Origin: a virus
IMG/VR virus record: IMGVR_UViG_3300042923_000281
Location: 62,001-126,000 of that record
Strand: one strand, 5' to 3'
Length of the DNA: 64,000 nt
Both the position numbers and the translations under genes were made by a program. Each line of letters starts with the position of its first letter. The first letter of the stretch is position 1. The notes below the pieces were generated by a model. It did no database searches and was not told the origin of the DNA. It was given only the letters and a program-made list of their open reading frames with translations. Of this stretch, positions 40,357-60,085 are shown piece after piece.

Positions 40357-41805
40357 TTAGATGTCCATGAGTGCTTGAAGAGCGCGGGTGTTGGTGTCCC
40401 CGTCACGAATGCAGGCTGCAACCCAGGTGTCGTAATGGCGAACCAGCACGTCACCGGCACGGTCAACGACCATGTTGGTGTTCAGGCAGAACTCGTGATT
40501 GATTTCACCTTCGAGTGCAGCTTTACCTTCAGCGGTCAGCAGACCGTTGGAGTCCAGCCACGACATCAGTTGACGCTGAATGCCAACAACGGCATCGACG
40601 TCCTGAACACGAGTGGTGATGTTTTCGATGACGATTGGATCAGCAACCGATTCAGTCGAGACCTTCTTCTTCGGGTTGCCTTCGGCGTCCAGTTCTTCTT
40701 CAGCTTCCGGATCGATTGGATCGGTCGGTTCAGCATCAGGATCTACTGGATCGGCATCGGCGTTGGCCGCAGCGATTTCAGCTTCTGGGTCGATCGGGTC
40801 AGTTGGCTCTTCGATTGGATCGACAGGGTCAACTGGATCTACTGGATCAGCGCCCGGGTCAACGGGGTCGACCGGATCTACTGGGTCCACAGGTGCATCG
40901 GGATCGACAGGGTCGACCGGCGCATCAGGGTCCAGTGGGTCAGTGCTGCCAGCGGCATCCGGATCAACCGGTGCGTCTGGATCAACAACGTCGCCTTCAC
41001 CGTTGTTCTGAGTCGACGGGGTGTCTTTCTCGATGGTGCTGGCATTGACGCCGTCATCAAGTTTCGGCCCCGATGGATTCTCACCGCGGTGCTGTTCGAT
41101 CAGGTCGCCCATGCGGTCTTCACCGTCAGTGCCAATGGCAGCAGCTTCGGAGCGAGCAGCTTCTGCGCTCTCTTCAGCACTTTCCTTGGCCGTGGCAACC
41201 AGCGCTTCGATACGGTCAACCGCGTCGGACATGTCGCCCAGGACTTGGGTTTGTTCCAGGTCTTCCATGGAGACACCCAGAGCAACCAGACCGTCGCCCA
41301 TGCGGCGAGCCACGTTCAGCACCAGAGGACGGGCTGCTTCGATGGTCATGCCTTCCATGGAGATCACTGCTTTCACAGTGTCGATGTTTTCCTTGAACAG
41401 GCCCAGGGCTTCTGCCTTGAAGTTCAGGGATTCCAGCGAGGCCGTGGTTTCGGTGTCGCGGGTGGTGAACGGCACAGGCTCTTCGTTATCAGCCTTGGCT
41501 TGCAGAGCTTGCTCGATGGTCTCGACTTCAGTCAGACGAGGAGTAAGCACGTCTTGCATGATCAGCTCGACTTGAGCTTGTGGCTCGCTCACGCCATCGA
41601 CGACCTGCAAGTCGGCCTGATGATCAGCTTGTTCAAGCACGTTTTCAGCCAGCACCATGAAGGACGAAGCGGAATCGCTTTCCAACGATGGGGTCAGCAG
41701 AAGTGCCTGACCAACCGACATCAGAGCTTCGAGACTGGTGCGGTAGGCTTGAGTCTCGTGAAGCATTTGAGCCGCGTTTGGTCGTGCGGTGGTATTGTGC
41801 GTCAT
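40357..41805 (-). CDS. Putative inner-body (internal head) protein precursor, 482 aa
   Basis: The N-terminal 260 residues hold S-x-E motifs (for example VSMEDL, ISMEGM, ASLESL, PSLESD), the cleavage pattern of the phiKZ-type head protease. Another (STESV) lies after the repeat. Residues about 272-368 are a DPDAPVDP-type repeat like the portal tail. phiKZ-like heads enclose a protein cylinder made of processed proteins of this kind, so an inner-body role is plausible. It is divergent from the SNF2-type helicase gene. No enzyme motif is visible. Confidence 0.6.
   Translation of the reverse strand: MTHNTTARPNAAQMLHETQAYRTSLEALMSVGQALLLTPSLESDSASSFMVLAENVLEQADHQADLQVVDGVSEPQAQVELIMQDVLTPRLTEVETIEQALQAKADNEEPVPFTTRDTETTASLESLNFKAEALGLFKENIDTVKAVISMEGMTIEAARPLVLNVARRMGDGLVALGVSMEDLEQTQVLGDMSDAVDRIEALVATAKESAEESAEAARSEAAAIGTDGEDRMGDLIEQHRGENPSGPKLDDGVNASTIEKDTPSTQNNGEGDVVDPDAPVDPDAAGSTDPLDPDAPVDPVDPDAPVDPVDPVDPVDPGADPVDPVDPVDPIEEPTDPIDPEAEIAAANADADPVDPDAEPTDPIDPEAEEELDAEGNPKKKVSTESVADPIVIENITTRVQDVDAVVGIQRQLMSWLDSNGLLTAEGKAALEGEINHEFCLNTNMVVDRAGDVLVRHYDTWVAACIRDGDTNTRALQALMDI
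40700..40990 (-). repeat. Asp-Pro low-complexity repeat in the inner-body gene
   Basis: Codons for DPVDP, DPDAP and related units are repeated with synonymous variation. Composition and register match the portal tail repeat at 5225-6390. Confidence 0.88.
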
Positions 41806-43975: not shown

Positions 43976-45097
43976 ATGAAACAAGGTATTTTGAGCCAGT
44001 ACATGATGTCTGACGCACGTCAGGCTGGTCGTGGTCTACTGGCGTCGCTGGAGTCCATTGAAGAGATGGAACTCGGGGAAGAGAAGAAAGCAGATGCAAT
44101 CGAAGAGGCAAGTTCGTTGGCATTGCGCATCGGTCGGGACTTTCCTGAAGACAGTGACATGCATCAGAGCATGTTCAAGGTTCTTGAGAACATGGGCGCT
44201 ACCGAAGGTGCCAATGTTTCCAATGAAAGTCTATTGGGGTTGGCCACAAAGCTGTCTGGGTTCTGGCGAAAGCCTAAACCAGACTCTAAACAAATCTCTG
44301 ATGAAGAGAAGACGGATTGGAGCAAACGCCAACAAGCTATCCTCCAGTTCATCAAGGACATGGAGAAGACGTACCTGAACACGGTTTGGTTGGGTAAGCA
44401 GAAGTACGTTCAAGGTACTGTCCCTGCCAAGGACTTCTCAGGAGCGTTCCAGCTTGACGGGAAGCCGGTCACAGACCCACTGGCAAACATCGAGCAGCAC
44501 AAGAAGAACACTGGTGCGTTCATCAAAGCATGGCACGGCGTCTTGGCCAACCTGAACACCCAAGTGCAGGCCATCCATCAGCGTACAGTCAAAGCCACTG
44601 CCGGTGCGGCACTTGATGACGAAGCAGCGATCGACATCGTCCGCAAAGCGGTTGATGAACTCAATACATTACCCGACCCCACTGCCAAGTTCCCTTCGTT
44701 CTCCGGCACTGCATTGTCCAACATGGTCCCCGTCATCAATACCCGCTTCAGTGTGCCCGTGGTGAATGTCGAAGCAAAGATGCCGATGTCCCCAAGTGAC
44801 ACGCTGCCTGCGCTGGATAAAGATGGGGTGCTCAAAGTAGCCAAGTTGGTTGTCGAGATGATGAAGAACCCTGACTTCTGGCCACACATGGAATGGATCA
44901 GGTGGCTGGACTTCAAGGACGGCAGTAAGTTCAGTGACTGGATCTACGACGCAGACAACAGTGTCTACATGGATTACTACCATCGCTTCTATTGGCAGGG
45001 TGCCAACGATGCATGGTCGGACGACATCTTCGCATTGAACAGTCACTACCGCGTTATCATAGGCTTGATCAAGTGGATGGATCGCTCGATCAAGTAA
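43976..45097 (+). CDS. Putative internal head protein, 373 aa
   Basis: The start follows AAGGAT. The first 85 residues include ASLESI and VSNESL, S-x-E sites as in the capsid precursor, ahead of a helical, basic body rich in aromatic residues near the C-terminus. This layout fits a virion protein trimmed by the head protease. It lies 42 bases after the helicase gene. No enzyme motif is visible. Confidence 0.58.
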   Translation: MKQGILSQYMMSDARQAGRGLLASLESIEEMELGEEKKADAIEEASSLALRIGRDFPEDSDMHQSMFKVLENMGATEGANVSNESLLGLATKLSGFWRKPKPDSKQISDEEKTDWSKRQQAILQFIKDMEKTYLNTVWLGKQKYVQGTVPAKDFSGAFQLDGKPVTDPLANIEQHKKNTGAFIKAWHGVLANLNTQVQAIHQRTVKATAGAALDDEAAIDIVRKAVDELNTLPDPTAKFPSFSGTALSNMVPVINTRFSVPVVNVEAKMPMSPSDTLPALDKDGVLKVAKLVVEMMKNPDFWPHMEWIRWLDFKDGSKFSDWIYDADNSVYMDYYHRFYWQGANDAWSDDIFALNSHYRVIIGLIKWMDRSIK

Positions 45098-45144
45098 ACA
45101 AAGAAAAAAGAAAGCACTGGAGAGCAGCCCTAGGGCTGCTCTCC
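45098..45144. terminator. Bidirectional terminator at a convergent junction
   Basis: GGAGAGCAGCCC/GGGCTGCTCTCC stem (45119-45144). The A-tract at 45098-45114 serves as the U-tract of the minus-strand gene, and CTTATGCCG follows on the plus strand. Confidence 0.85.
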
Positions 45145-45152
45145 TTATGCCG

Positions 45153-45458
45153 TCAGTGCAGTATTTCCAGACCTTCGATTTGTAGGTTGTCTAACGTACG
45201 ACGGACCCAGCCTTCATCAGGCGGACGCTTCTGATTGCGGAGCGCTACCTCTTCACGCTTGTCAGGCGTGACGAACAGCAGCGAGAGGGGATAGTAGCCA
45301 CACTGTCCGGTGAAAGGGTTACCGTGGCGGACCAAGAGGCCCTTAACGGTGTCAGCCCATTTCAATTCCTCGAGGGGCACAGAGATGTAACTGATCCCTG
45401 TGTCTGCTTCGAGCTTCCGGAAGATCAGGCCTTGCTCTTCGTGATAGACATGTGTCAT
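45153..45458 (-). CDS. Small unknown protein, 102 aa
   Basis: The ATG at 45458 overlaps the upstream stop (ATGA). Residues 12-20 read IFRKLEADTG, recalling FKALEADIG in the 197-aa protein at 52526-53119, so both may share a fold. No known domain is recognised. Confidence 0.65.
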   Translation of the reverse strand: MTHVYHEEQGLIFRKLEADTGISYISVPLEELKWADTVKGLLVRHGNPFTGQCGYYPLSLLFVTPDKREEVALRNQKRPPDEGWVRRTLDNLQIEGLEILH

Positions 45459-46108
45459 TTGGGATCTCCCAGGCTGTTGATGACTTCTTGGTTCTTCTCG
45501 ATCCATTCTTCTTTGCTGATGGCGTCATTGAAGCTGGTCGCTACATCGACATCATTGAACAGGCGAGACATTGGTTGGTACACGTAACGTCCGTTGATGA
45601 CAAACCGGACCATGTACATTTCAGGGATGAAGACACCGGTACCACGCTTTACGAAACGCTCGTTCAGCAGGGCCAGCGTGGCTTCATTTACAGCAGCGTA
45701 CGTGTCGCCGCCACGGGTAAACACGGTACCAGTGGTCTCGTGTTTCAGGGCGCGGCCACCCAGTACAGCTTCGTTGTGGTACACACCGCAAGGTGCGTTA
45801 ACCAGAACTTCGATGCGATGGATCTTGTTGCCCAGCTTGATCTTGGTCACACCGTAGTGCAGTTGCAGGATCACGCCAAAGATGCGTGGCAGGTGATCGT
45901 GCAGCTCGTACGGCAGTTGAGCGTTGACAACCATGCGGCCGTCTTCGTTCTCTTCGTACTTGACGATCAGGGTGTCGCCAGCCCGCTCATAGCCCACTTC
46001 TTCACACTCACTTGGAAGGCGAGTGATGAAGAGGTCTGCAAAGGGTTCACGGGTGTTGGCTTGTGCTTCAGCGATTTCGCGGGAATCAACGATGATGGTG
46101 TAAGTCAT
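45455..46108 (-). CDS. Unknown protein, 217 aa
   Basis: The ATG at 46108 follows AAGGAG. The longer frame from 46213 starts inside the next gene and has a poor start. The chain is alpha/beta, with an N-terminal TYTIIVDSREIAE strand-helix and no clear catalytic motif. Part of a compact early-type minus-strand operon. Confidence 0.67.
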   Translation of the reverse strand: MTYTIIVDSREIAEAQANTREPFADLFITRLPSECEEVGYERAGDTLIVKYEENEDGRMVVNAQLPYELHDHLPRIFGVILQLHYGVTKIKLGNKIHRIEVLVNAPCGVYHNEAVLGGRALKHETTGTVFTRGGDTYAAVNEATLALLNERFVKRGTGVFIPEMYMVRFVINGRYVYQPMSRLFNDVDVATSFNDAISKEEWIEKNQEVINSLGDPK

Positions 46109-46142
46109 GACATGCTCCTTAGCATGAGGGTAAAGGGTAGGG

Positions 46143-46505
46143 TTAGTGCAAGTGGTGCGAAGACTCGGGTGTATCTGCCCAGTCAACCGACAGGATGATC
46201 TTGGCAGACTCAATGAGGACCTTGGTGCGGTACTCAGGTTGTAATTCGTGACGCAGTGAGAAGATCGGTATCCCTCTCAACGTTTCAGCCATGTTGACCA
46301 AACCGTCGAAAGGGTAATTCACTTGCTCGGTGTAAAGTACAACTTGATTCAGGCCCACGACATGGATCGTGGTCAAAAAGCCCTGAATGATTTCGATAGC
46401 GACAGCGTACTGTTGTCCTGAGATGTAGCCCTTTAACAGATCACCATGACCTGTCCAGATCCGAAGAGCTGGGGCAAATATCTCGACAACGGCGTCGGTG
46501 TACAT
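46143..46505 (-). CDS. Unknown protein, 120 aa
   Basis: The ATG at 46505 follows AAGGAGAG. Mixed alpha/beta composition with a His-rich end (ESSHHLH). No motif is recognised. Confidence 0.66.
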   Translation of the reverse strand: MYTDAVVEIFAPALRIWTGHGDLLKGYISGQQYAVAIEIIQGFLTTIHVVGLNQVVLYTEQVNYPFDGLVNMAETLRGIPIFSLRHELQPEYRTKVLIESAKIILSVDWADTPESSHHLH

Positions 46506-46515
46506 GGGACTCTCC

Positions 46516-46680
46516 TTAACGAGAGGGTTTGTTGTAGCCCGGGACATCCTTGATGAGGTTAGAGACGGTAGCACGTACCTGTGCCATCTTCTTTTCTTCT
46601 TTACGCTTGAGGTAGTACGACATCCCAAGGTAACCAACAACGAAGCCACCGATAGCGCAAGCGCCGTAAGTTTTAGACAT
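46516..46680 (-). CDS. Small membrane protein, 54 aa
   Basis: The ATG at 46680 follows AAGGAA. One Gly-rich hydrophobic segment (residues 6-22) precedes a basic helix (YLKRKEEKKMAQVR). A single-pass membrane protein with a cytoplasmic basic tail is likely. It is the first gene after the promoter-like element at 46715. Function unknown. Confidence 0.65.
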   Translation of the reverse strand: MSKTYGACAIGGFVVGYLGMSYYLKRKEEKKMAQVRATVSNLIKDVPGYNKPSR

Positions 46681-46714
46681 GATACGTTCCTTCACTAGGT
46701 TAGGGTCATTCACC

Positions 46715-46753
46715 GTTATCATGTATTGTTGAAAAGAATTCGAATCGAATCGG
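46715..46753 (-). promoter_or_regulatory. Recurrent phage promoter-like element
   Basis: The minus strand reads CGATTCGAATTC, spacer, CAACAATACATGATAAC. It shares 36 consecutive identical bases with the element at 51178-51218. It lies directly between a terminator and the small membrane gene. Confidence 0.7.
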
Positions 46754-46788
46754 CATAAAGGCCAGGAGCACTCGCTCCTGGCCTATGC
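46753..46788 (-). terminator. Terminator with GCATA/TATGC clamp
   Basis: AGGCCAGGAGC/GCTCCTGGCCT with a four-base loop, flanked by GCATA and TATGC that extend the stem. It closes the spanin pair. Confidence 0.82.
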
Positions 46789-47037
46789 TTACTTGGGGGC
46801 TGCTTTATTAGCGGCATTGATCAACCGGATGTCAGCGTTGCAGTTGGTAAGGGACTGGGTCTGACGGATGTAGGCCGAGGTCATCTGCACTAACTTCTCA
46901 TCAGGAGTCGCCGTGGTGTATCGTTCGCCTTTAGGAGGAGAAGCGGATTCACATTCAGGCACCGCTTGGTACTGACGGTTGCCACACCCTGCCAGCATCA
47001 GGACGACAAACAGCAGGATCACTTGAAGGGAGCGCAT
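46789..47037 (-). CDS. Outer-membrane spanin lipoprotein (o-spanin), 82 aa
   Basis: A signal peptide ends in LAGC with the lipobox cysteine at C18, followed by a short periplasmic domain with two further Cys. It overlaps the end of the upstream inner-membrane spanin gene by 19 bases, a classic Rz/Rz1-like arrangement. Such pairs link the inner and outer membranes and fuse them in the last step of lysis of Gram-negative hosts. Small size and overlap fit. Confidence 0.78.
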   Translation of the reverse strand: MRSLQVILLFVVLMLAGCGNRQYQAVPECESASPPKGERYTTATPDEKLVQMTSAYIRQTQSLTNCNADIRLINAANKAAPK

Positions 47038-47522
47038 GTCTCGTCCTCATTCTTGATGGAGATGCAGTACGCCTTCCATGCGTTGTTCAAAGACTGCAAC
47101 GCAATCTCTTCATTCACGGGCCGCAGTTCAGACACCTTGGGGTCAAAGACCTCAGACTTGGTGATGTCAGTAGTCGGGCAATTGGAGACACGGTCTCGGT
47201 ACTTGACCACCTCAACGATCTGAGGCGTTGCAGGAGATGGAGGGGCAACCGGAGTATTGTTCCGTGCAGCGCACATCAAATCGATCTGGGCTTCCTCCAA
47301 TTCATCGAACCACATCTTGTTCTGCTTCTTGGTCGAGGTGTAGGTCTCGATCTCAGTGCGCAGTCCGGCAATGGTCTCATCACGTTCGCCAATAGTGGTG
47401 CTCTGGTTGGCTACTTGGGTGTTCATGTCCAATGACCAATTGACCCAGTAGGCCAAAGCACCAAGGACAATTGCGATTGCCAGCAGCCATTTAAGGTTGA
47501 CCAGCGAGAGTAGCTTGCTCAT
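47019..47522 (-). CDS. Inner-membrane spanin (i-spanin), 167 aa
   Basis: A single membrane segment at about residues 11-29 is followed by a charged coiled-coil stretch (STTIGERDETIAGLRTE-like, residues 41-60) and a Pro-rich linker. This is the Rz-type topology with the bulk in the periplasm. It overlaps the lipoprotein gene. Endolysin and holin genes are not evident beside it. ATG at 47522. Confidence 0.75.
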   Translation of the reverse strand: MSKLLSLVNLKWLLAIAIVLGALAYWVNWSLDMNTQVANQSTTIGERDETIAGLRTEIETYTSTKKQNKMWFDELEEAQIDLMCAARNNTPVAPPSPATPQIVEVVKYRDRVSNCPTTDITKSEVFDPKVSELRPVNEEIALQSLNNAWKAYCISIKNEDETCAPFK

Positions 47523-47538
47523 GAGAACTCCTCATAAA

Positions 47539-47561
47539 GGGGAGAGCCGAAGCCCTCCCCT
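47539..47561 (-). terminator. Terminator-like hairpin
   Basis: GGGGAG and CTCCCC with a central GC and CGAA loop lie between the 129-aa basic gene and the i-spanin gene. Confidence 0.55.
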
Positions 47562-47569
47562 AGATTCAC

Positions 47570-47959
47570 TTACTCGGCGCAGGTGTCGAGGAAGTTGATA
47601 ACCAGAGCGGCTACCAGTGCAGCGGGGGTGACGCCCATGCGGGCCGCTTCTTTGATCAGGACTTCTTTCTGCGCTTTGGTGATCTTGCCACCGAGCGATT
47701 CAGAACGAGTCAGGCCGCCTTTGGCGAAGCCTTCGAAGATCTTGGCCAGACGTGCTGGGATCTTGTAGGGCTTTTTCGCTGGGGCTTTCTTGGCAGCAGG
47801 CTTGGCCTGTGCAGCAGGAGGAACGCTGATCGAGGCGACCTTGGTCTTTTTGATACCGTCAGCAGGGGCTACCTTGGCTTTCGGTTTGGCAGCCAGTTTA
47901 GCTGCGGGCTTACCGGCTGGTTTCTTTGCGACTGGTTTGGTTTCGTCATGGACGGCCAT
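47570..47959 (-). CDS. Lys/Ala/Pro-rich basic protein, 129 aa
   Basis: The first 75 residues are KPAxKPxAK-type repeats, like the tails of histone H1 and bacterial nucleoid proteins. The C-terminal 50 residues form a compact helical part (ITKAQKEVLIKEAARMGVTP). DNA binding is likely by charge. It may compact phage DNA or interfere with host nucleoid, but this is inference. The start at 47959 follows AAGGAAC. Confidence 0.65.
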   Translation of the reverse strand: MAVHDETKPVAKKPAGKPAAKLAAKPKAKVAPADGIKKTKVASISVPPAAQAKPAAKKAPAKKPYKIPARLAKIFEGFAKGGLTRSESLGGKITKAQKEVLIKEAARMGVTPAALVAALVINFLDTCAE

Positions 47960-47995
47960 GGTGTGTTCCTTAGGATAGTTGGCAGAGGACTTTAA

Positions 47996-48559
47996 TTAGT
48001 CCTTCATACTATCCTCTTCATGGTCTTCCTTGAGCGAGAACATACTGACCGTACGCCGACCATCGGCATGGATCACAGGCTCTTGAGTCGAGTCGCCCAA
48101 ACGGGCAATCACATCGAACATGATGTTGCTCATTTCCATCTGGACCGCAGGACGATCAGATAGCTTATTGAACATGTGATCGCCAAACTGGAAGTACAGG
48201 TGCCGGGCTTTGATGCCTTGCTCATGGATGAAGACAAACTTCTCCCGTTGAGGAGTCGGCATGTACGTGCCCAAGATCATGATCCGTTCACCCCACTCGC
48301 ACAAGTCGCGTGCAATGTCAGTGTAGAAACAGATCTCAAGACCCTTTTCAATGTACATCCCTTTGACCATGTCGTACATGGAGTCACGCAACATGGCTCT
48401 AGCGTACTCCACACCCAGTCCTGTGTTCAGACTGTAGAAGATGTAGTACGTGTGCTTGTCCAACAGCGTCAATCGAATGCTGTTGGCCAGCACCTTACGA
48501 AGCTTCTTCTTTCTCCGCGGCAATAAGCAGAGGTCCAAGAGCATCCGCAGGCGTTTCAT
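47996..48559 (-). CDS. Unknown protein, 187 aa
   Basis: The ATG at 48559 is the preferred start because GGGAAG lies ahead of it; an ATG five codons upstream is also in frame. It overlaps the upstream gene. The N-terminus is basic (RRKKKLRK), with an alpha/beta body after it. No known motif. Confidence 0.63.
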   Translation of the reverse strand: MKRLRMLLDLCLLPRRKKKLRKVLANSIRLTLLDKHTYYIFYSLNTGLGVEYARAMLRDSMYDMVKGMYIEKGLEICFYTDIARDLCEWGERIMILGTYMPTPQREKFVFIHEQGIKARHLYFQFGDHMFNKLSDRPAVQMEMSNIMFDVIARLGDSTQEPVIHADGRRTVSMFSLKEDHEEDSMKD

Positions 48560-48995
48560 AATGGTACTTCCCATCCTTAAAGCTCTCCAAGCGATGTTTG
48601 AGATCCATGTCCATCACTTCTGACATTGCCTTCGTCAGACGGTAAATAGAGACCATGGCATTGTTCTTGTGTACCACTGCACGGCAATTGACCAACTTGC
48701 CAGTTCGCCATTCAGGCTTGAAGAATTCCATGGAGGCGATGTACGCAGCCTCAGTGAAGGCGTACCCAGTCGACCCCTCACAGACGATGTGCCAGAAGTC
48801 ATACTTGTCATCGTCCTTAAAGGTCACATCCCATGTAGAAGCATGCAGACTCAGTGACCCGCTGTAGACCCCGAACGCATCACGTGCATCAAGGTCAAAG
48901 AAATCTCCACGAACGGCCTCGCTATCGTATAGGTAGTCATCCAACTCCCGGGAGTCAGGATGCAGGCCTTCACGGAATACCAACAACTTTTTCAT
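48495..48995 (-). CDS. Unknown protein, 166 aa
   Basis: The chain begins MKKLLVFREG, followed by an acidic FDLDARDAFGVYSG. This loosely resembles the starts of the 45153 and 52526 gene products. No known domain. It heads the minus-strand run from 48995 to 45153 and is divergent from the plus-strand gene at 49059. Confidence 0.65.
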   Translation of the reverse strand: MKKLLVFREGLHPDSRELDDYLYDSEAVRGDFFDLDARDAFGVYSGSLSLHASTWDVTFKDDDKYDFWHIVCEGSTGYAFTEAAYIASMEFFKPEWRTGKLVNCRAVVHKNNAMVSIYRLTKAMSEVMDMDLKHRLESFKDGKYHYETPADALGPLLIAAEKEEAS

Positions 48996-49058
48996 GGTGT
49001 AAGGCCTTAGCTAGTTCTACACCATCTCAGCACTTTTTCTTTATTAACGGTGAACGTC

Positions 49059-49526
49059 ATGTCCCATCTGTACCACGGTTCTGGCTACAAACAACCGGAG
49101 CTTAAACCCGGCATCATGCACTCGGGTGAATTGCAGCGCTGGGACAAGACCGAATCCAACGAGTTCCTCTACGCCACCACGTTGATGGAAGAAGCCATTG
49201 CCCAAGGCTTAGCGTCGGTCATTGAGAAGCACTGGAACCTATCTCGTTACCAGTCCTCAGGCGACACCATTACGATCATCGTTGATGGGCCTCTCCCGTC
49301 GCTCAAGGAGCTTCAAGCCCTGACGGTGTATCTGTACAAGATCCACTGGGAGAAGTCCGTGTGGGTCCTCGTAGACAACCTGCACAATGGAATGTCCAAC
49401 GAGTACAAGACCAAGCAGGTCATCGGCGGGAAGATGATCGAAAGCTGTGAGCCTGTGGACCTGAGCAATTGGCTCAAGCACAAGAAGGTCGAGATCAAAG
49501 GCAAGACCGCAGCGATGCGTTGGTGA
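49059..49526 (+). CDS. Possible ADP-ribosyltransferase-like protein, 155 aa
   Basis: It starts LYHGSGYKQPELKPG, followed by TESNEFLYATTLMEEAI and a late NEYKTKQVI. The pattern YHGS, then FLYAT, then an acidic site resembles small ADP-ribosyltransferase folds (HxT/HGS and YxT elements). The catalytic glutamate cannot be assigned with confidence. It is the only plus-strand gene in an 18-kb minus-strand region and is bounded by a convergent terminator. If real, it could modify a host protein. An RNA 2'-phosphotransferase-like fold is another option. Confidence 0.35.
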   Translation: MSHLYHGSGYKQPELKPGIMHSGELQRWDKTESNEFLYATTLMEEAIAQGLASVIEKHWNLSRYQSSGDTITIIVDGPLPSLKELQALTVYLYKIHWEKSVWVLVDNLHNGMSNEYKTKQVIGGKMIESCEPVDLSNWLKHKKVEIKGKTAAMRW

Positions 49527-49576
49527 CAAAGAAAAAAAAAGAGGCTAGAGACAGGGGACCTTCGGGTCCCCTGTCT
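49526..49576. terminator. Bidirectional terminator at a convergent junction
   Basis: AGACAGGGGACC/GGTCCCCTGTCT stem closed by a TTCG loop (49549-49576), with an A-tract at 49526-49543 that is the U-tract of the minus-strand gene. Confidence 0.85.
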
Positions 49577-49582
49577 ATTCCG

Positions 49583-49951
49583 TTACGACATCAGCCAGAT
49601 CGGCTTGATGTCACTGAGTGGATAGGTCTCACCGTCAACAACGATCTTGACGGGGTCCGTTGAATCGCCCGAGTAAGTGACACCTTGGATAGACCCCATC
49701 CCAGCGGGAGTCTTAACCAACATGCCAACCGACGGGTTCCACATGACGCCCTCGCCATCGAACTCCACGGTGCCGCTTTCAGGGTCTGGCGTGGCCATAC
49801 TCTTCTTGAGGCGCGCGATGATCTCGCTGTTCATGGAACGATGGTTCTCTTTCGCCACCTCCTGAATCTGTTCACGCATGCCATCAGGCAGACGTACAAC
49901 GAACTTATCAGCAGTACGGGAAGAGTAGATTGCTTGTTTCAAAGGACGCAT
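49583..49951 (-). CDS. Arc-type ribbon-helix-helix regulator, 122 aa
   Basis: Residues 15-50 follow the Arc repressor pattern: a basic strand FVVRLPDG, a helix [12 protein letters not shown], then [14 protein letters not shown]. The C-terminal 70 residues form a separate beta-rich domain with no known match. Arc-type proteins bind DNA as dimers. It could repress phage early genes. Its own promoter is not obvious. A convergent terminator follows the gene. Confidence 0.72.
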
Positions 49952-50021
49952 GGTAAAGCCTCTTGCAAGTGGGACCCTAGAGTCCCGGGTTATGGTGGTG
50001 AAGTGCCATTATGGCGATGTA

Positions 50022-50792
50022 TCAACGGCCGGTCAAGAAGTTCTTCGCTTGTTCCTGAGTAAGGTTCACCAAACCCTTACCGTGGAAACGGCTAGCCGAA
50101 GTACTGATCCCGGTGAACTCGTCCCCGCCCAAGTGCAGCACGGCAGAGACATTCGACTTGGTCACGTGAAGCACACCAGCAACGCCATCAACGGAGCATT
50201 TGTGGTAGCCACGTGCCAACTCGGTATTGCGGGTCTCGAAGTCAACCGAAGACAACTCGATGACGTCAGGACGACGCAATTTGGCCACGAACGAACTCCA
50301 GAAGACTGGAGATTGATCGGGTTGTACTGGGTTCAACACCGCCCGAGGACGGGAGATGCTGACCACCTTGTCACCATTTCTATCCTTGACTTGTTCAAGG
50401 ATAGCTTCCGAGCTGGAAGCCATCATTTCTTCGCCAAACTGACGGATGCTCGGAATGGTCCCAGGCGCCTGTTCAAAGTCAAGACTGACGTTGCTCGTAG
50501 CAGTGCTGGGCGAACGGTAGGTCATGAAGTCGAATGGGCCGTCAGTGTCCTTTTTATCAGCCATGTCGGCTCCTTCAGCTTTTTCAATGACGGTTTCGGT
50601 GATGGCCACTTCCACTTTCTGGGTAGTGGTTTGTTGTACCCGAGCACGCAGGATGGCTTTACGCTCTTCCATTTGCTCAGGGGTGAGTTTGTCATCGCCT
50701 TTACGAGCCTTGACAGTCTTCCAGCCGAGACCGCCAACGATAGCAGCAGCAACAGCACCCACACCAACGATTACGGCAACTTGCTTTTCCAT
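50022..50792 (-). CDS. Membrane-anchored protein of unknown function, 256 aa
   Basis: The N-terminus has MEKQVAV, then a Gly/Ala/Val membrane helix to residue 23, followed by basic residues and a soluble domain with TKSNVSAVLHLGG. It resembles the 324-881 protein in layout and in the last residues. ATG at 50792 follows AGGAG. Not a known enzyme. Confidence 0.68.
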   Translation of the reverse strand: MEKQVAVIVGVGAVAAAIVGGLGWKTVKARKGDDKLTPEQMEERKAILRARVQQTTTQKVEVAITETVIEKAEGADMADKKDTDGPFDFMTYRSPSTATSNVSLDFEQAPGTIPSIRQFGEEMMASSSEAILEQVKDRNGDKVVSISRPRAVLNPVQPDQSPVFWSSFVAKLRRPDVIELSSVDFETRNTELARGYHKCSVDGVAGVLHVTKSNVSAVLHLGGDEFTGISTSASRFHGKGLVNLTQEQAKNFLTGR

Positions 50793-50822
50793 GGTGAAAC
50801 TCCTTTCAGTTCCGAGGTAAGT

Positions 50823-51140
50823 TTATTGTACTTGACGCAGGCTAGTGGCTTCGATCATCTTGGCAGTCGCCTCGTCCATGATCTTCTCAATTGCCATGCG
50901 GTCTTTCATGCCAACGCTCTGAAGGATCAGATCGTCAGCTTCTTGCTCCAGCTCCAAGGCACGGGAGAGGTTGCTGGCACGCAGGGCAGCTTTCTCGATA
51001 CGCTTGGCGTTCTTCAAGGCTTCGTATTTACGCTTGCCTTGCCAGCTCCGATAGACTCGCTTGATGGCAGTCCAGATGGACACCTTCTCTTGAGTGGTCG
51101 AAACACGGGATTCTTCCAGTTGACGGATGAGTGCGAACAT
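50823..51140 (-). CDS. Coiled-coil protein, 105 aa
   Basis: The ATG at 51140 follows GGAGATCAAC. Charged helical composition (Arg, Lys, Glu, Ala) throughout suggests a coiled coil. It is the first gene after the promoter-like element at 51178. Function unknown. Confidence 0.62.
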   Translation of the reverse strand: MFALIRQLEESRVSTTQEKVSIWTAIKRVYRSWQGKRKYEALKNAKRIEKAALRASNLSRALELEQEADDLILQSVGMKDRMAIEKIMDEATAKMIEATSLRQVQ

Positions 51141-51177
51141 GTTGATCTCCATTGATCAGGGTTAGGGTTATGTCAGC

Positions 51178-51218
51178 GTAATCATGTATTGTTGAAAAGA
51201 ATTCGAATCGAATCGGTA
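51178..51218 (-). promoter_or_regulatory. Recurrent phage promoter-like element
   Basis: The minus strand reads CGATTCGAATTC, spacer, CAACAATACATGATTAC. It shares 36 consecutive identical bases with the element at 46715-46753, and a terminator follows it on the plus-strand side in both. Confidence 0.7.
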
Positions 51219-51221
51219 TAA

Positions 51222-51247
51222 GGAGCCAGGGCAATTGCCCTGGCTCC
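51222..51247 (-). terminator. Palindromic terminator
   Basis: GGAGCCAGGGCAATTGCCCTGGCTCC is a perfect palindrome written here by position: two 12-base arms with an AT centre. It closes the 51251-51553 gene. Confidence 0.8.
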
Positions 51248-51250
51248 ATG

Positions 51251-51553
51251 TCAGCATTTGGTGCAGGCCATCTTGTAGAATTCGTTGTTGATCTCGATGA
51301 GTTGATCAACCGATGTAGCGGTGTGCAATGCATCAATGAAACACCCTGCCGCCCCTTGGATGGTCTTCATCAGGTGCTTGGCTGCTTCGAACTCATCACC
51401 TGACAACTTGTCGAAGGAGGTCCGCTTGAGCAACTGCAACATGATGTTCATGTGACTGGCAGTAATGCGGGCAGCCATCCAGCGTTCAGGGATGTCTTTG
51501 TGACCCGGTGAAGTGCTATTGGCAAAGGAAGTAGAAACGTGGACGAGTGACAT
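51251..51553 (-). CDS. Small protein, 100 aa
   Basis: The ATG at 51553 follows GAGGTGTC. Helical, with a Cys-rich end (MACTKC) and a conserved-looking GAAGCFIDAL. No known family. The product may be a small early protein. Confidence 0.6.
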   Translation of the reverse strand: MSLVHVSTSFANSTSPGHKDIPERWMAARITASHMNIMLQLLKRTSFDKLSGDEFEAAKHLMKTIQGAAGCFIDALHTATSVDQLIEINNEFYKMACTKC

Positions 51554-51589
51554 GAGACACCTCAAATTCAAGACTATAGGATTGGTATC

Positions 51590-51690
51590 TCGGCAAAACA
51601 AAAAAAGAAAGAAGTCTTGGGACACTGTTCGTCATCATTCGCCTCAGGGAGATCAGCCCCTTACTACGTTTCCGAGTCGACAGTGTCCCG
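51590..51690 (-). ncRNA. Putative small structured RNA
   Basis: GGGACACTGT (51619-51628) and ACAGTGTCCC (51680-51689) form a 10-bp perfect stem around a 51-base loop. Minus-strand reading continues into a CTTTCTTTTTTTGTTTTGCCG stretch (51591-51614), a U-rich end like that at 39901. It may be a terminated small RNA, or only a terminator for the 51878 gene. Region 51554-51877 has no other coding frame worth noting; an 11-bp stem AATCAATAGTC/GACTATTGATT lies at 51836-51879. Confidence 0.45.
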
Positions 51691-51877
51691 TAACCTTGTG
51701 TAGCGCTTGTCTTCCTCATCCCCCGAGCCCTTTCACCAAGTGCGTCATCGCGTAGTGCGAGGCCTTGCGTTAATCAGTCGTAGGTTTGGATCGGACTGGA
51801 GGCCATTGCCATCCAATTCAACCGAACTCAATCGGAATCAATAGTCATCAAATGTGTTCACTGACACGGACTATTGA

Positions 51878-52189
51878 TTAGCTCTCGTGCACCTTAGGCA
51901 CGCGCTGGATAGTCCGCTCAGACACCGCCGTGCGATAGCCCTCTGCTGGTTTCACGACGCACACTTGCGAAGCTCGTGCCATGAAGAGTACACCTTCTAA
52001 GCGAGCCATTGCTGGCATCGCCCTTGGGAGAAGACCTTTCCCCAAGTCCTGATGGTGCATCTTATCCGACGACGCAATTGCGCTCTTCTCTTGCTTAGCG
52101 ACTGCACGATTGTGCTCTTCCGCTTGGGCAGACAAGGTGACAGCTAGGGCCAACGCCACGAGAGTGGAGAAGCCGCGGGTTCTGATCAG
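51878..52189 (-). CDS. Small secreted protein, about 93-103 aa
   Basis: The frame encodes a signal peptide (IRTRGFSTLVALALAVTL, then SAQA before the cut) followed by a basic periplasmic part. GTG at 52159 begins inside the hydrophobic core, so the true start is upstream. AAGGAG lies at 52193-52198, three bases before CTG at 52189 and six before ATC at 52186; no ATG is in frame. The product would be exported. No domain is recognised. Confidence 0.4.
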   Translation of the reverse strand: MIRTRGFSTLVALALAVTLSAQAEEHNRAVAKQEKSAIASSDKMHHQDLGKGLLPRAMPAMARLEGVLFMARASQVCVVKPAEGYRTAVSERTIQRVPKVHES

Positions 52190-52237
52190 TAGCTCCTTAG
52201 AGGCTTAATTGAACGCTCATGAGTTATCAATGGTCTC

Positions 52238-52301
52238 CAGTGCTACGGTGCACCTACCGTTCCACGCGCCTTATGCGTGAGGTAGGGCACCGAAGTCACT
52301 G
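52238..52301. other. Multi-stem hairpin overlapping a small frame
   Basis: Nested perfect pairs CAGTG/CACTG, GGTGC/GCACC, CCTACC/GGTAGG and CACGC/GCGTG form a long hairpin of about 64 bases. It overlaps the end of the 52243-52437 frame. It looks like an RNA control element or attenuator. Confidence 0.55.
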
Positions 52302-52437
52302 AAACGGATGTAACGGTCCCGGTAATGCGCGGCGGGTCATCGGTCTCATTCGGCGGCGTCACGAGTGACACGGCCTTTAGAAGACGTTGTACTGATGTCC
52401 AGATGCGGCGCACGGAACCAAAGAACGATCCGAACAA
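52243..52437 (-). CDS. Doubtful small protein, about 64 aa
   Basis: AAGGAT lies seven bases before TTG at 52437 and one base before GTG at 52443. The N-terminus is an amphipathic basic helix (FFGSVRRIWTSVQRLLKAV) and the rest is polar. It could be real and co-transcribed with the secreted protein gene, but the strong RNA hairpin inside its 3' end argues caution. Confidence 0.3.
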   Translation of the reverse strand: MFGSFFGSVRRIWTSVQRLLKAVSLVTPPNETDDPPRITGTVTSVSVTSVPYLTHKARGTVGAP

Positions 52438-52525
52438 TGGCACGATCCTTAATCGATGTCACAGTGCTACTACATACAACTCGACCGAAACGTATTTATT
52501 TACCTGTGACCCGTATGTCCTTGAT

Positions 52526-53119
52526 TTAACGGGGTAATCTTGGCCGTATGTTGTTACGACGACGGTGGCCAGAGGGCACGTTATCTTCCGCTGGTTGTTC
52601 TGGCTCTGGGTAGTCTTTATTGAGGCGCGCTACAATGTCCTCAACCGACATCCAGACGATGGGGTAATTGGCCCCAACTGCCATCCCGTTAGTATCCTGC
52701 TGGAATTTCTCTTCGTCCTTCCAAGCAGCCAGCGCACCCAACAACGAATCGCGTGTACTGATCTCAGAACACATGACGTAGGTCGATTGGCCCGATGGCA
52801 GACCGTGGAAGTCTAACGTCCAGCGCTTTTCATCAGGGCTGGTGTTGTTCTTGAAGATGTCAACCTGCGCGATAGCCCCTTGTTTGGAGATCATGTAAGC
52901 CGACATGTTCATCGAGACACGAGGGTGACTGGCCATCTTCAAGCGACCACTCACCACGTCAGCGATGTTCGGCCCAGTGCCGCTCAGTGGGTAGATGAAA
53001 CCTTCATTGCTGAAGTACGTGCCGATGTCGGCTTCTAGGGCTTTGAAGTGTACGCCTTCGTTGGCCTCATGGACCTCAGGGAACCCGACCATGCCACGGC
53101 GGTAGATTAGGAAGTTCAC
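52526..53119 (-). CDS. Unknown protein, 197 aa
   Basis: The start overlaps the stop of the HslV-like gene (ATGA), so the two are translationally coupled. It carries FKALEADIGTYFS near residue 26, shared in part with the 45153 gene product. The C-terminus is basic (GHRRRNNIRPRLPR). No known domain. Possible partner of the Ntn hydrolase. Confidence 0.65.
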   Translation of the reverse strand: MNFLIYRRGMVGFPEVHEANEGVHFKALEADIGTYFSNEGFIYPLSGTGPNIADVVSGRLKMASHPRVSMNMSAYMISKQGAIAQVDIFKNNTSPDEKRWTLDFHGLPSGQSTYVMCSEISTRDSLLGALAAWKDEEKFQQDTNGMAVGANYPIVWMSVEDIVARLNKDYPEPEQPAEDNVPSGHRRRNNIRPRLPR

Positions 53120-53637
53120 AGAGTAGTCCCCTTGATAACAAATGGCTTCAATCGGCTAGCGTAAATCACATCGACCTTCGAGCCGGTCAACAGATCCAAA
53201 CGCTCAACGACTGGCATCGCCGCTTTAATAGTCATGCCGCACTTCAACATAGCAGCGAGTAGGTTACCACCCGTCCCACAGCCGTGTGTATGGCCCGCTA
53301 AGCGACGAAAGCGAGAACCGTAGGACATGATACCGAATTGCTGGTCACGGGTCATGAGGGTGCCGTGAGTGAAGCAATCGATCTTGTCTTCCAAGATGTC
53401 TTCCAGAGGGACGACGTCTCGTTTGTCAATGACTAGGCGTTCAAGAACAACGCGGAGTTTGTGTTCCAGTTCATCACGAATGGATTCATCGATGGCGGAG
53501 CCAGTGGCACCGTAAGCAAATTGCTTATCGCGGCTGATGAAGACTTTGGGACCGTCTTCGAATGCTGTAGGGATTACCAAGGCCACCTGTTTACGGTCGC
53601 CGATCAGTTTCCCATCATGGTACACAATAGCAGTCAT
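53116..53637 (-). CDS. HslV/proteasome-like Ntn hydrolase, 173 aa
   Basis: T2, exposed after removal of Met1, would be the N-terminal nucleophile. In proteasome numbering D13 (GD) and K30 (DGPKVF) are spaced like the catalytic D17 and K33. GCGTGGNLLAAML fits the GSGG turn before the first core helix, and a final VDVIYASRL strand follows. Known HslV and proteasome subunits are self-compartmentalised peptidases. No ATPase partner is adjacent, but the AAA+ gene lies 400 bases away. Length matches HslV. The start at 53637 lacks a strong ribosome site. Confidence 0.6.
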   Translation of the reverse strand: MTAIVYHDGKLIGDRKQVALVIPTAFEDGPKVFISRDKQFAYGATGSAIDESIRDELEHKLRVVLERLVIDKRDVVPLEDILEDKIDCFTHGTLMTRDQQFGIMSYGSRFRRLAGHTHGCGTGGNLLAAMLKCGMTIKAAMPVVERLDLLTGSKVDVIYASRLKPFVIKGTTL

Positions 53638-53654
53638 ACGAACTCCAAAAATAA

Positions 53655-53678
53655 AGAGAGGACCCGAAGGTCCTCTCT
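53655..53678 (-). terminator. Rho-independent terminator
   Basis: The 10-bp stem AGAGAGGACC/GGTCCTCTCT with a CGAA loop is followed on the minus strand by TTTATTTTTGG. It lies between the 107-aa gene and the HslV-like gene. Confidence 0.8.
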
Positions 53679-53686
53679 ATGCTGGC

Positions 53687-54010
53687 TTAGTAGCCGCCGC
53701 GCGATTCACGCAGTTCAGACAGCGAACCGCAAGACTTGCGAGGGCTGGACTTTGGCAGTTCGCCCTGTGGGGCTACGCCGGTTTCGGAGACCAGGGTCAC
53801 GACGCCAGTTTCGACGTCGATGGCGATGGTGGAGCCTGCCTTGATGGTCTTGTCGTAGTCTTCGACTTCCACGGACATCTGGATAGTCTTGTCCACTTGG
53901 AACACCAGCTCTTTCTTGTCAGCCTTGGCTACGTAGGCTTCGAAGGGTTTCTTGTCCTTGGCCAGGAATGCCAGGATCGCTTGGTGCTTCTCGATTTCTT
54001 TGATTTTCAT
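53687..54010 (-). CDS. Small beta-rich protein, 107 aa
   Basis: Residues 1-22 form a helix; the rest alternates short strands (ELVFQVDKTIQMSVEV, GSTIAIDVETGVVTLV), a beta-barrel pattern. It lies 39 bases downstream of the AAA+ gene and may be its partner. Not a known family. Confidence 0.63.
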   Translation of the reverse strand: MKIKEIEKHQAILAFLAKDKKPFEAYVAKADKKELVFQVDKTIQMSVEVEDYDKTIKAGSTIAIDVETGVVTLVSETGVAPQGELPKSSPRKSCGSLSELRESRGGY

Positions 54011-54049
54011 GCAGACTCCTCAGTCTTGGGTTGGTGTAGCAGGGATGGA

Positions 54050-55315
54050 TTAGTTAGCCTGGCCAGCAGCCGGATGGTGCTTGCTGGACAGCATGGCTTC
54101 GCGGTTGGCGAATTCAGTGGCGTTTTCACCACCCGCAACGGGACCCTCGCTCAGGTAGCGACCGATCCCAGCAGACTTCTTTTCGCCGTAGGTCTCCGTC
54201 GGGGCGAGGTTGATGGTTGGGGTGTTGTACTCGAACCCGTAACTCAACGTGATGTTGAACTTGCGATGACCTTGGTAGCTTACGACACGAGTGCCTTCGG
54301 ATTCTTCCAGGGCTTCGATGTGCAACTGAGCTTCTTTCAACATCGGGTCCGGGTTGGAGTCGATTGACAGGAAGCTGGTGTTGCCAGACTTGCGGGTCTC
54401 GGTGATGCGGACGGTCAGGTCGCTGCGGCTGTGGCGGTGCGAGTAGACCTGATAGCCGAAGCCTTCAAACTCTTCAGGAGTGTCCACCACTTCCACACGA
54501 GAGACGAACCACTGCATGCGCGGGAAATCCGGTACGTTGAGGATCTCGCACATGTCGGCCACTTCGATGGCATCTTTGCAGCCCGCCGACTCACGGATAA
54601 CGCAGAGCAGGGAGTCGAAGTTCAGCTTGCCGCTTTCACGCTTCACGTACGCTTCGAACGCCTTGTGCAGATGTTCAGAGACCTGCATCTTGGCCATGAT
54701 GTCATGGAGGGTTTCCAGGTCAATCATGGTGCCGAAGCCGATGTTGTAACGGAAACGCTGAGGACGGTTGACCAGGTAGTCGGAGAACTCTTCCGCCTCG
54801 TTGCCAGTGATGACGAACATTACGCCCAGGAACGACGTGTCGCTGAACAGTGGCAGCAGACGCTCACGTTCGACCTTCTCGCTGTAGGTCTTACCGAACT
54901 CGTCGAAGTACACCATGCAAGGGCCGATGGCCTTGATGATGATGCTCAACTCTTCAGCACCCATGGCCTCAGTGACCATGATGACCGGCAGGTCTTGCGC
55001 GATCATCCAGTTACCCAGTTCTTCTGCCAGCAGGCTCTTACCCGAACCCTTCATGCCGTGCAGCAGGACGCCGTTGCTCTTACCGAAGCGGTCATAGCTG
55101 GCGGTGATCTGCTTAACGCGGGCATTGTGTTTACCAAAGCGCAGCTGAGGCAGTACGAAGGTCGGGCGGTCCTTGGTCATGATGATGCCGATACGACCGA
55201 TGGACGCCTTGTACACCATGGCCGGCACGTGGTCGATGAGGTTGGACTCATCGTTCATGCGAATGACCATGTGGTTGTCGAAGTTGTTGATGCTGATAGA
55301 AGCTTTGCGATCCAT
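54050..55315 (-). CDS. AAA+ ATPase, 421 aa
   Basis: Walker A GMKGSGKS lies at 87-94, Walker B MVYFDEF at 134-140, sensor 1 as FVITGNEAEE, and arginines at 184 and 187 follow in NRPQRFRY, fitting a finger position. The N-terminal 60 and C-terminal 180 residues are special to this protein. AAA+ proteins remodel or unfold partners. With an HslV-like gene and a 260-aa gene as neighbours it could be an unfoldase or a DNA-replication clamp-type ATPase; the sequence does not decide. Confidence 0.75.
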   Translation of the reverse strand: MDRKASISINNFDNHMVIRMNDESNLIDHVPAMVYKASIGRIGIIMTKDRPTFVLPQLRFGKHNARVKQITASYDRFGKSNGVLLHGMKGSGKSLLAEELGNWMIAQDLPVIMVTEAMGAEELSIIIKAIGPCMVYFDEFGKTYSEKVERERLLPLFSDTSFLGVMFVITGNEAEEFSDYLVNRPQRFRYNIGFGTMIDLETLHDIMAKMQVSEHLHKAFEAYVKRESGKLNFDSLLCVIRESAGCKDAIEVADMCEILNVPDFPRMQWFVSRVEVVDTPEEFEGFGYQVYSHRHSRSDLTVRITETRKSGNTSFLSIDSNPDPMLKEAQLHIEALEESEGTRVVSYQGHRKFNITLSYGFEYNTPTINLAPTETYGEKKSAGIGRYLSEGPVAGGENATEFANREAMLSSKHHPAAGQAN

Positions 55316-55367
55316 GAGGTAAATCCTTGGTGAATTTCGAAATGAATGTACGAAGGTAAAGCGCCGA

Positions 55368-56150
55368 TTACTCGGCGTTTACGCGGGCGGTCTCTGCGAT
55401 GGATTCGGCAATCAAGAACGCGAGGTACACGCCCTTGAGTTGCAGCCAGCCGTGGTAGACAGAACCGCCGTGTTCAGTGAAGCCTGCTGCGTCAACGATG
55501 TAACCGATGAACAGCATGGCATTGCCCAGCAGGCCATTGTCGTACGTGGTCGAGTCCAGGGCTGCTTTACGGGCCTCTTCAGTGACGATGATCGGGTGGT
55601 TGCGCTGAGTGTCGAGGAAACGACCCAGTGCCACAACAGCACCAGCGTTATCGCCACAACCACACGCACCACCACCGTCCTTCGGCATAACGAGGTTCAG
55701 GATCACGGAGTCAATGTCACCGTGCCAGCATTCGTCGTCCACTGGAGTCCAGTTCTTGCCATCGGCGTCATCCAGCGTTCCGCCATCAATGCCCACGGTC
55801 GACCAGTCCAACATCAGACCGCAGAAGTGCGCCACAGTCGGGTTGACGTAGAAGCGGTTGCACTTGTCGCGAGTGACGACTTCCAGTTCAGAGTCGATGT
55901 AGCCGAAGGCGTCTTGCGCTTTCTTGGTGTACAGGACTTCGAACTCGGTGAACGCTGCATCAGCCGCATCGAACTTCTCTTTGTTCAGGTACGCCAGCTT
56001 CCAGTCGCCGGGCATATCGAGGAACGTGAAGTTGTCAGTGAGCTGAGGGATGGTCTCGTCGGTCTTGTGCATCACGACGAACGCAGTCAACAGTTTGCCT
56101 GGAGTGGCAGTTACGTCAGAAGAAGCAGACATGATAGCTTTGTTATCCAT
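55368..56150 (-). CDS. Unknown protein, 260 aa
   Basis: A Gly/Cys-rich GGGACGCGDNAG segment (near residue 170) may bind a metal or form a turn. The rest is mixed with hydrophobic helices near the C-terminus. It lies directly upstream of the AAA+ gene. Start at 56150 follows AGGAACC. No family recognised. Confidence 0.65.
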   Translation of the reverse strand: MDNKAIMSASSDVTATPGKLLTAFVVMHKTDETIPQLTDNFTFLDMPGDWKLAYLNKEKFDAADAAFTEFEVLYTKKAQDAFGYIDSELEVVTRDKCNRFYVNPTVAHFCGLMLDWSTVGIDGGTLDDADGKNWTPVDDECWHGDIDSVILNLVMPKDGGGACGCGDNAGAVVALGRFLDTQRNHPIIVTEEARKAALDSTTYDNGLLGNAMLFIGYIVDAAGFTEHGGSVYHGWLQLKGVYLAFLIAESIAETARVNAE

Positions 56151-56177
56151 GGTGAGGTTCCTGGGTGTATGTGCGGG

Positions 56178-56603
56178 TTAAAGGGTAGAGTTGTGCAAGT
56201 CAACCAAGATGTCGGTCAACTTCTCGAACGCATCGGCCAGAATGCTCATCGGGACTTCGTCGTGTCCAAAGATGGTCAAGCTGCCCTTTTCAGGTTCGGC
56301 GTAGATTGGCACTACCAAGATGAACCGGTTAAGGCCATCCGGGCAAGCGTCGTAGTTCTGAATCACAGCCAGTACCACATGACCGAGTTTCACGTACATC
56401 GTGCCAGACGCGCCCATCATCTCCGTTTCGTAACGGATTACAGGCTTGTGTACCGAGATGTTCCATTGACGGAACAGCTCAATAAAAGAGTGGCTGGTCA
56501 GGACACTGTGGTCCGTTTCCTTGCCAGTGGTGATGGTGAGTTGACCACGGAGTTCGCGTTCAATCAACTGGGTGAATTGCTTTGCCAGCTTCTGGAGTTT
56601 CAT
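56178..56603 (-). CDS. Unknown protein, 141 aa
   Basis: The ATG at 56603 follows GGGGACACT. Alpha/beta composition. No known motif. It begins the unit downstream of the promoter-like variant at 56630. Confidence 0.63.
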   Translation of the reverse strand: MKLQKLAKQFTQLIERELRGQLTITTGKETDHSVLTSHSFIELFRQWNISVHKPVIRYETEMMGASGTMYVKLGHVVLAVIQNYDACPDGLNRFILVVPIYAEPEKGSLTIFGHDEVPMSILADAFEKLTDILVDLHNSTL

Positions 56604-56629
56604 AGTGTCCCCTATGTAGGTGTATACAC

Positions 56630-56664
56630 GTGAATGATGTAGGGTCACAAACTTTTTGAATCGG
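56630..56664 (-). promoter_or_regulatory. Variant promoter-like element
   Basis: The minus strand reads CCGATTCAAAAAGTT, then GACCCTACATCATTCAC. The CTACATnATnnAC core is a variant of the CAATACAT element, and a terminator adjoins it in the same way. Confidence 0.45.
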
Positions 56665-56703
56665 CATAAAGCGGTGAGGGGTTGGCCCCCTCACCACCTA
56701 TGT
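56665..56703 (-). terminator. Terminator with GCATA/TATG clamp
   Basis: GGTGAGGGG/CCCCTCACC stem, flanked by GCATAAA and CTATG. It closes the 83-aa gene. Confidence 0.75.
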
Positions 56704-56707
56704 TGCT

Positions 56708-56959
56708 TTACTCGGCCGCTGCTTCAGCAACCGGCTCGAACGACCAGCTTTCAGCCAATTGCTTGGCCAGATCGCGGGTCACGCTGTTCGGCGCACCGTC
56801 AACGGTTTCGATGGCAGTGTCGACGATGGTCAACGTGCCTTGGATCGCGAAGTTGATGGCTTCAGCCTTGTCTTCGATGGCAATCGCATCGCGGCGAATG
56901 TCGTTCAGGCAGGTCACAGCGTCTTTGCGAGCTTGTTCAGCAGATACAGTCGTGGACAT
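56708..56959 (-). CDS. Small helical protein, 83 aa
   Basis: The ATG at 56959 follows AGGAG. Almost entirely helical, acidic and with Ala-rich ends. Co-transcribed with the Nudix-like gene 26 bases upstream. Function unknown. Confidence 0.62.
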   Translation of the reverse strand: MSTTVSAEQARKDAVTCLNDIRRDAIAIEDKAEAINFAIQGTLTIVDTAIETVDGAPNSVTRDLAKQLAESWSFEPVAEAAAE

Positions 56960-56985
56960 CAGTGTTACTCCTAATGGTGCAGCGG

Positions 56986-58110: not shown

Positions 58111-58143
58111 GGTGTAACTCCTAATGGACAACGAAAGGGTGAA

Positions 58144-58166
58144 AGGGGTGAGTTGCCCCACCCCTA
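58144..58166 (-). terminator. Terminator-like hairpin
   Basis: AGGGGTG/CACCCCT stem between the 627-aa gene and the Nudix-like gene, with no long U-tract. Confidence 0.45.
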
Positions 58167-58170
58167 AGGT

Positions 58171-60054: not shown

Positions 60055-60085
60055 GGAATCTTCCTTTGGTTACGAAATAGATGGG

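Follow-up and report, generated by a model that had tools for sequence, protein, structure and literature searches.

Probable early promoters of phiKZ type, with a diverged consensus, in a jumbo phage related to Pseudomonas phage pPa_SNUABM_DT01

A two-part element, a TTCGAAT-like box followed by CAATACAT, is repeated on the minus strand of a 64,000-base window of viral DNA (positions 62001-126000 of the 276,978-base virus record IMGVR_UViG_3300042923_000281). These elements are very probably (about 90%, by our own estimate) early promoters of the phiKZ type, read by the virion RNA polymerase (RNAP) of a nucleus-forming jumbo phage and carrying a diverged consensus. The assignment builds on direct observations: a motif in fixed register, biased in strand and towards intergenic positions, conserved at orthologous genes and laid out as in phiKZ. 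The nearest named relative of the window's phage is pPa_SNUABM_DT01 (DT01), with ~186 kb alignable at 73.9% identity; Noxifer and phiKZ are more distant, and the G+C content of the genome is 54%, against 37% in phiKZ.

The repeat was confirmed and lies well beyond what chance would give. An earlier note on this DNA had reported minus-strand copies at five places and looser variants at two more, and all seven were recovered. Sites are named here by the position of the C of CAATACAT, i.e., 949, 3690, 21538, 46728 and 51191, plus the looser 56644 and 63247. The 36 identical bases (CCGATTCGATTCGAATTCTTTTCAACAATACATGAT) at 46728 and 51191 were likewise confirmed by direct reading. A supposed plus-strand copy at 33010 belongs instead to the minus strand, at 33001 and ahead of a gene on that strand; opposite it there is just CGATACATTAT near 33040 on the plus strand, which goes unreported by the position matrix described below, and a plus-strand copy was rejected. 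The sites of the window are as follows (TSS, transcription start site; ORF, open reading frame; scores are matrix scores).

930-971, minus strand: early-promoter site 949, predicted TSS 932, score 42.3; leads gene 324-881; orthologous site in DT01 at 42287
3671-3712, minus strand: early-promoter site 3690, predicted TSS 3673, score 39.6; leads a structured RNA (3488-3595) and a 64-amino-acid ORF (3266-3460)
21519-21560, minus strand: early-promoter site 21538, predicted TSS 21521; leads gene 20335-21465, then 18672-20324; orthologous site in DT01 at 23163
32982-33023, minus strand: weak early-promoter site 33001, predicted TSS 32984, score 24.7; orthologous site in 7/7 relatives (12499 in DT01)
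46709-46750, minus strand: early-promoter site 46728, predicted TSS 46711, score 53.8 (the highest in the window); box ATTCGAA 46739-46745, core 46718-46725; leads gene 46516-46680
51172-51213, minus strand: early-promoter site 51191, predicted TSS 51174, score 48.4; box 51202-51208, core 51181-51188; leads gene 50823-51152
56625-56666, minus strand: looser early-promoter site 56644, predicted TSS 56627, score 33.3; intergenic; leads gene 56178-56603
63228-63269, minus strand: looser early-promoter site 63247, predicted TSS 63230, score 27.7; leads gene 62681-63160; orthologous site in 7/7 relatives (239667 in DT01)

The pattern TTCGAAT-N(7-14)-CAATACAT has three exact matches in the window, compared to none in 100 shuffles, and five in the whole genome, all on the minus strand; the reversed pattern has none. 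The TTCGAAT box is exact at 3/8 of the window sites, while 3690 has TTCAAAC and 21538 has TTCAAGA. The motif tail CAATACATnATTAC alone, with as many as 3 mismatches allowed, does not exceed chance (12 matches versus 7.7 expected), and the significance resides in the joint 42-base pattern. An iterated position matrix of 42 columns recovered further sites, and conservation was found to run past the reported motif on both sides, as far as GTGA, with a near-invariant G (conserved at ~0.97-0.99) 17 bases after the C of CAATACAT. To avoid circularity, a matrix trained on DT01 alone was run over the window's genome. It gave 26 sites in 277 kb, 26 minus and 0 plus, and no site in 8 Markov-simulated genomes or in the reversed genome. 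The final totals are 27 sites in this phage (eight in the window, 8/8 minus), 27 in DT01, 32 in phiKZ and 31 in Noxifer. Six IMG/VR relatives, with chimallin identities of 69-98%, have 25-27 sites each, on a single strand and mostly at orthologous genes; the one-strand rule is kept in all ten genomes examined. For the IMG/VR search the fixed-gap pattern was used, since the loose gapped pattern (gap 7-14) returned at least 119 stretches and was swamped by chance matches.

Location and layout fit promoters. At least 75% of the site is intergenic in 24 of 27 cases, compared to 6% for random 42-mers, and so the outcome named in the earlier note as fatal to its proposal, a motif equally frequent inside genes, was not seen. 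From upstream to downstream there is an ATTCGAA box at about -34, a T-rich spacer, a TACATnAT core from -14 to -7, six bases and a TG at -1/+1, and a start codon mostly follows 20-100 nucleotides (nt) after the predicted start. In TACATnAT-(6N)-G a G stands 6 nt past an AT-rich core, as in phiKZ-type virion-RNAP early promoters, whose conserved core is ~8-13 nt long (architecture in PMC5312081). Copies had also been described as lying between a terminator and the next gene. Terminator-like palindromes are visible by eye just upstream of 46728 and 51191, but a simple terminator scan detected only one, before 63247:

63301-63316: terminator-like hairpin just upstream of the 63247 site

The same architecture is found in phiKZ. 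Promoters there read tATTCAAAcatatTTaAAcAG-TATATTAC-aaagGTGA, against gATTCGAAttcttTTcAAcAA-TACATGAT-aacgGTGA here, and ATTC to GTGA spans 36 nt in both; the phiKZ TATATTAC promoters bear an ATTCAAA box at exactly the distance seen in this phage. Common to the two are an ATTCrAA box, 13 nt, an 8-nt core, 6 nt and TG, with the sites confined to one strand. They differ in the core (TACATTAT/TACATGAT here, with C at -12 and T at -7, versus TATATTAC) and in the box (TTCGAA versus TTCAAA/TAAAA). A phiKZ matrix in the same frame yielded 31-32 phiKZ sites, all plus; 28 early promoters have been reported for this phage (PMC13282480). Column by column, the conservation (information) profiles of this clade and phiKZ correlate with r = 0.84 in register, no other shift exceeding 0.46, and the upstream part by itself with 0.86. 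Noxifer has the same layout, with cores CTATATCAC/CTATATTGT and 31 sites, all plus. When core matches were chosen without using the upstream box, those between genes had a richer box than those inside genes in this phage (p = 1.5e-3), DT01 (p = 1.7e-6) and phiKZ (p = 3.8e-4).

These comparisons bear on the proposal that the TTCGAAT box is an extra that defines a genuinely new promoter class for this phage's own polymerase. Exact TTCGAA is indeed frequent in the clade, and box and core vary together, strong boxes going with cores other than TACATTA (odds ratio 8.0). However, phiKZ has a box of ATTCAAA/ACTAAAA type at the corresponding place, and Noxifer shares the register. On the comparisons above, the upstream box is a general part of the promoter type and not an addition of this phage. 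Parts of the element had moreover been published, as the upstream block of the 201phi2-1 consensus and as the core CCTACATTATY of the EL consensus, the latter without an upstream box (PMC7058600). We consider a new class very unlikely, and the idea is largely refuted; the assignment to a polymerase of the phage itself is supported.

Related promoters have already been predicted in phiKZ, EL, 201phi2-1, OBP and N1M2 (PMC7058600). The predicted EL promoter WTTTYAAACCTACATTATY shares the TACATTAT core and the preceding T-rich/CA run (PMC7058600), an annotated EL promoter lying at 36030-36048. The matrix of this clade scores EL poorly (best ~5, in the first 50 kb of EL), and EL was compared through its published consensus and annotated promoters. 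In 201phi2-1, OBP and N1M2 the predicted promoters likewise have an AT-rich upstream block, a TTTnA stretch, the core and then GTG, but with TATATTAC or KATATTAT cores; they are sequence predictions, compared here from one published table (PMC7058600). Experimental starts come from AR9, in which the early promoters AAATATATATTAT-(6N)-G, read by the virion polymerase, were mapped by differential RNA-seq; its authors place the start 6 nt after the element also in phiKZ and phiR1-37, and the virion RNAPs of this group had yet to be purified when that paper appeared in 2017 (PMC5312081). AR9 resembles this phage in the core, the spacing of exactly 6 nt and the start G. It differs as a uracil-DNA Bacillus phage with an extended AT core and a reported consensus without an upstream box.

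Alternatively, the sites could be operators, bound by a regulatory protein of the phage rather than by its polymerase. This would suit their intergenic location and the short palindrome ATTCGAAT inside the box. Operators would hardly be so strictly oriented, every site lying on the coding strand of the gene it leads, nor be followed 6 nt past the core by a near-invariant +1-like TG with a start codon close by. The layout is also identical to that of mapped promoter consensuses, and we regard operators as highly improbable.

The genes led by the sites point to early promoters. Between this phage and DT01, 15 reciprocal best-hit genes have a site in both, 216 in neither and 9 in one only (p = 2e-16). 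The phage encodes a complete virion RNAP set of phiKZ type and a complete non-virion set (tblastn; matches for the 4 virion subunits tested and for 5 non-virion subunits), a chimallin-like shell protein (tblastn) and a PhuZ orthologue that is the reciprocal best hit of the phiKZ and Noxifer PhuZ. In 4/4 phages (this phage, DT01, phiKZ and Noxifer) a site accompanies the chimallin gene and also the gene of a non-virion polymerase subunit resembling phiKZ gp68. All five non-virion RNAP genes lie in site-led units, 0-2 genes away on the same strand, one of them in the window:

18672-20324, minus strand: non-virion RNAP subunit (phiKZ gp123/Noxifer gp125-like; tblastn E 5e-68), the second gene in the unit that site 21538 leads

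None of the virion RNAP genes is site-led, nor is the major capsid gene; for these, the nearest site either is at least 9 kb off, separated by genes of the opposite strand, or lies on the other strand itself. A study of phiKZ counts the non-virion subunits among the early products and assigns the virion set to middle genes (PMC4666361), and the early/middle split of RNAP genes drawn by the sites agrees with that report.

With this distribution we find it barely credible that the non-virion polymerase reads the sites as middle or late promoters. The T(-1)G(+1) pair does occur in the phiKZ late motif T(-3)ATG(+1), but phiKZ late promoters are without a conserved upstream element (PMC7598289), whereas the sites here have strong upstream elements and do not have TA at -3/-2; moreover, they lead all the non-virion polymerase genes themselves and not the virion polymerase or major capsid genes. 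Host sigma-70 promoters were rejected, with 7 TTGACA/TATAAT matches versus 9.9 expected in 45000-64000 and none at the sites.

For a phiKZ-type early promoter, we propose that the multisubunit virion RNAP would be injected together with the DNA and would recognise three stretches, ATTCGAA/ATTCrAA at about -34 to -28, a T-rich run ending in TTncA at about -24 to -19, and the core TACATnAT at -14 to -7, where melting would occur. Six bases further on, transcription would begin at the G of a TG that is usually part of GTGA. Each site would stand where one transcription unit ends and the next begins, and the genes served would be small lineage-specific ones, together with core early genes encoding the nuclear shell protein, PhuZ (a tubulin) and the five non-virion polymerase subunits.

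Several points weigh against this assignment. The phiKZ matrix gives most sites of this phage low scores (best 15.5, many <5) and the sequence identity is modest; sites 33001 and 63247 are weak; and in Noxifer the comparison of the box between intergenic and genic core matches gave no significant difference (p = 0.26, with 5 genic controls only). The gene calls for this phage came from a home-made caller that overlooked at least one conserved ORF (64 amino acids). The start sites are predicted, not mapped, and we infer that the virion polymerase reads the sites, that it does so early and exactly where it starts.

If correct, the assignment provides a predicted set of ~27 early promoters, and hence an early-gene list, for DT01, this phage and six uncultivated relatives. 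A review gives the early promoter of this group as a "10-base motif near -10"; the comparison shows further fixed parts, with a box near -34 kept in register across four divergent phages. To our knowledge the virion RNAP has no sigma homologue, and the sites bear on how such an enzyme finds its promoters, naming candidate bases.

Some promoters of one and the same genome resemble each other more closely than expected. Sites 46728 and 51191 are identical at 39/42 positions, compared to a null mean of 32.6 when columns are shuffled within the sub-class (0/2000 nulls as high). The 46728 site has 2 differences from its orthologue in the closest relative; 51191 has 9 from its own orthologue and 3 from 46728. 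The simplest reading is that the 46728 sequence may have been recently copied onto the 51191 locus, although one pair proves neither the direction nor the mechanism of copying. Over-alike paralogous promoters, which hint at recent copying or conversion, occur also in several relatives and in phiKZ, among them:

phiKZ 70336/246704: over-alike promoter pair
phiKZ 2662/4513: over-alike promoter pair
DT01 251857/255582: over-alike promoter pair

For phiKZ 2662/4513, and in one relative, the identity extends into the leader, as copying would give.

The tendency of strong ATTCGAA boxes to go with cores that differ from TACATTA holds conversely too, with p = 4e-4 in this phage alone and 4e-12 pooled over related genomes, a figure that overstates their independence. 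It looks like two sub-classes or compensation. A further-reaching picture, to which we give less than even odds, has the virion RNAP reading a true two-box promoter (-34 and -12) that is used as two sub-classes. In the first, which would mostly precede lineage-specific genes, a strong ATTCGAA box would be joined to a degenerate core (TACATGAT/AGT/TGT); in the second, which would serve core replication and transcription genes, the box would be weak and the core the canonical TACATTAT. The boxes might then compensate mutually or set different timing or strength, and the strong-box sub-class might have spread round the genome by copying.

Behind the 3690 promoter there is a conserved structured RNA, which may be more novel than the promoter. 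Its copies are:

3488-3595 of the window, minus strand: conserved structured RNA element, beginning 78 nt after the predicted TSS of the 3690 promoter
L021 (DT01), 41384-41492: copy of the element
L197, 4948-5054: copy
L209, 14465-14571: copy
L219, 4882-4989: copy
L228: three copies
L252, 8690-8800: copy
L259, 4341-4450: copy

A covariance model built on six copies located the element in three further relatives, one of them with three copies, and not in Noxifer or phiKZ; DT01 was the sole match in the named-phage collection, and among the genomes searched the element is confined to the DT01-like clade. Over 11 copies, 16/23 pairs have changed on both sides and 97.0% of pair cells are standard, values reached by 0/500 shuffles and favoured somewhat by the fitting of this alignment to the model; the unfitted six-sequence alignment has 4 compensated pairs and is 99.4% paired. 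The support for the structure is this covariation, since single-sequence folding is unexceptional (z -1.15). Rfam had no match to the element at the gathering threshold, and elsewhere in 3100-3700 weak chance-level matches only. In five genomes the element lies 66-79 nt past a predicted early start, and in three others it is further downstream. The 64-amino-acid ORF (3266-3460, minus strand) follows 27 nt after it and is conserved in DT01 as well as in three relatives. The idea of a riboswitch-like leader belonging to a single gene was set aside, since the downstream gene varies between phages; a terminator-like hairpin directly after the element in one relative also disfavours it.

Other features of the window were noted in passing. 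Between 51479 and 52525, ~1 kb has no called gene, yet short minus-strand ORFs are present. At 49866-49951, the start of gene 49583-49951, 86 bases are 92% identical to the gene of a Noxifer "Arc-like transcriptional regulator," although the two phages are otherwise barely alignable as DNA; judging from this likeness, horizontal exchange is possible. Finally, the leader after the 21538 promoter (~21463-21520, minus strand) contains TAATAAAATACACGTGTAA-TTTTTAA, which includes the palindrome ACACGTGT, and nearly the same sequence is found downstream of DT01 23163.

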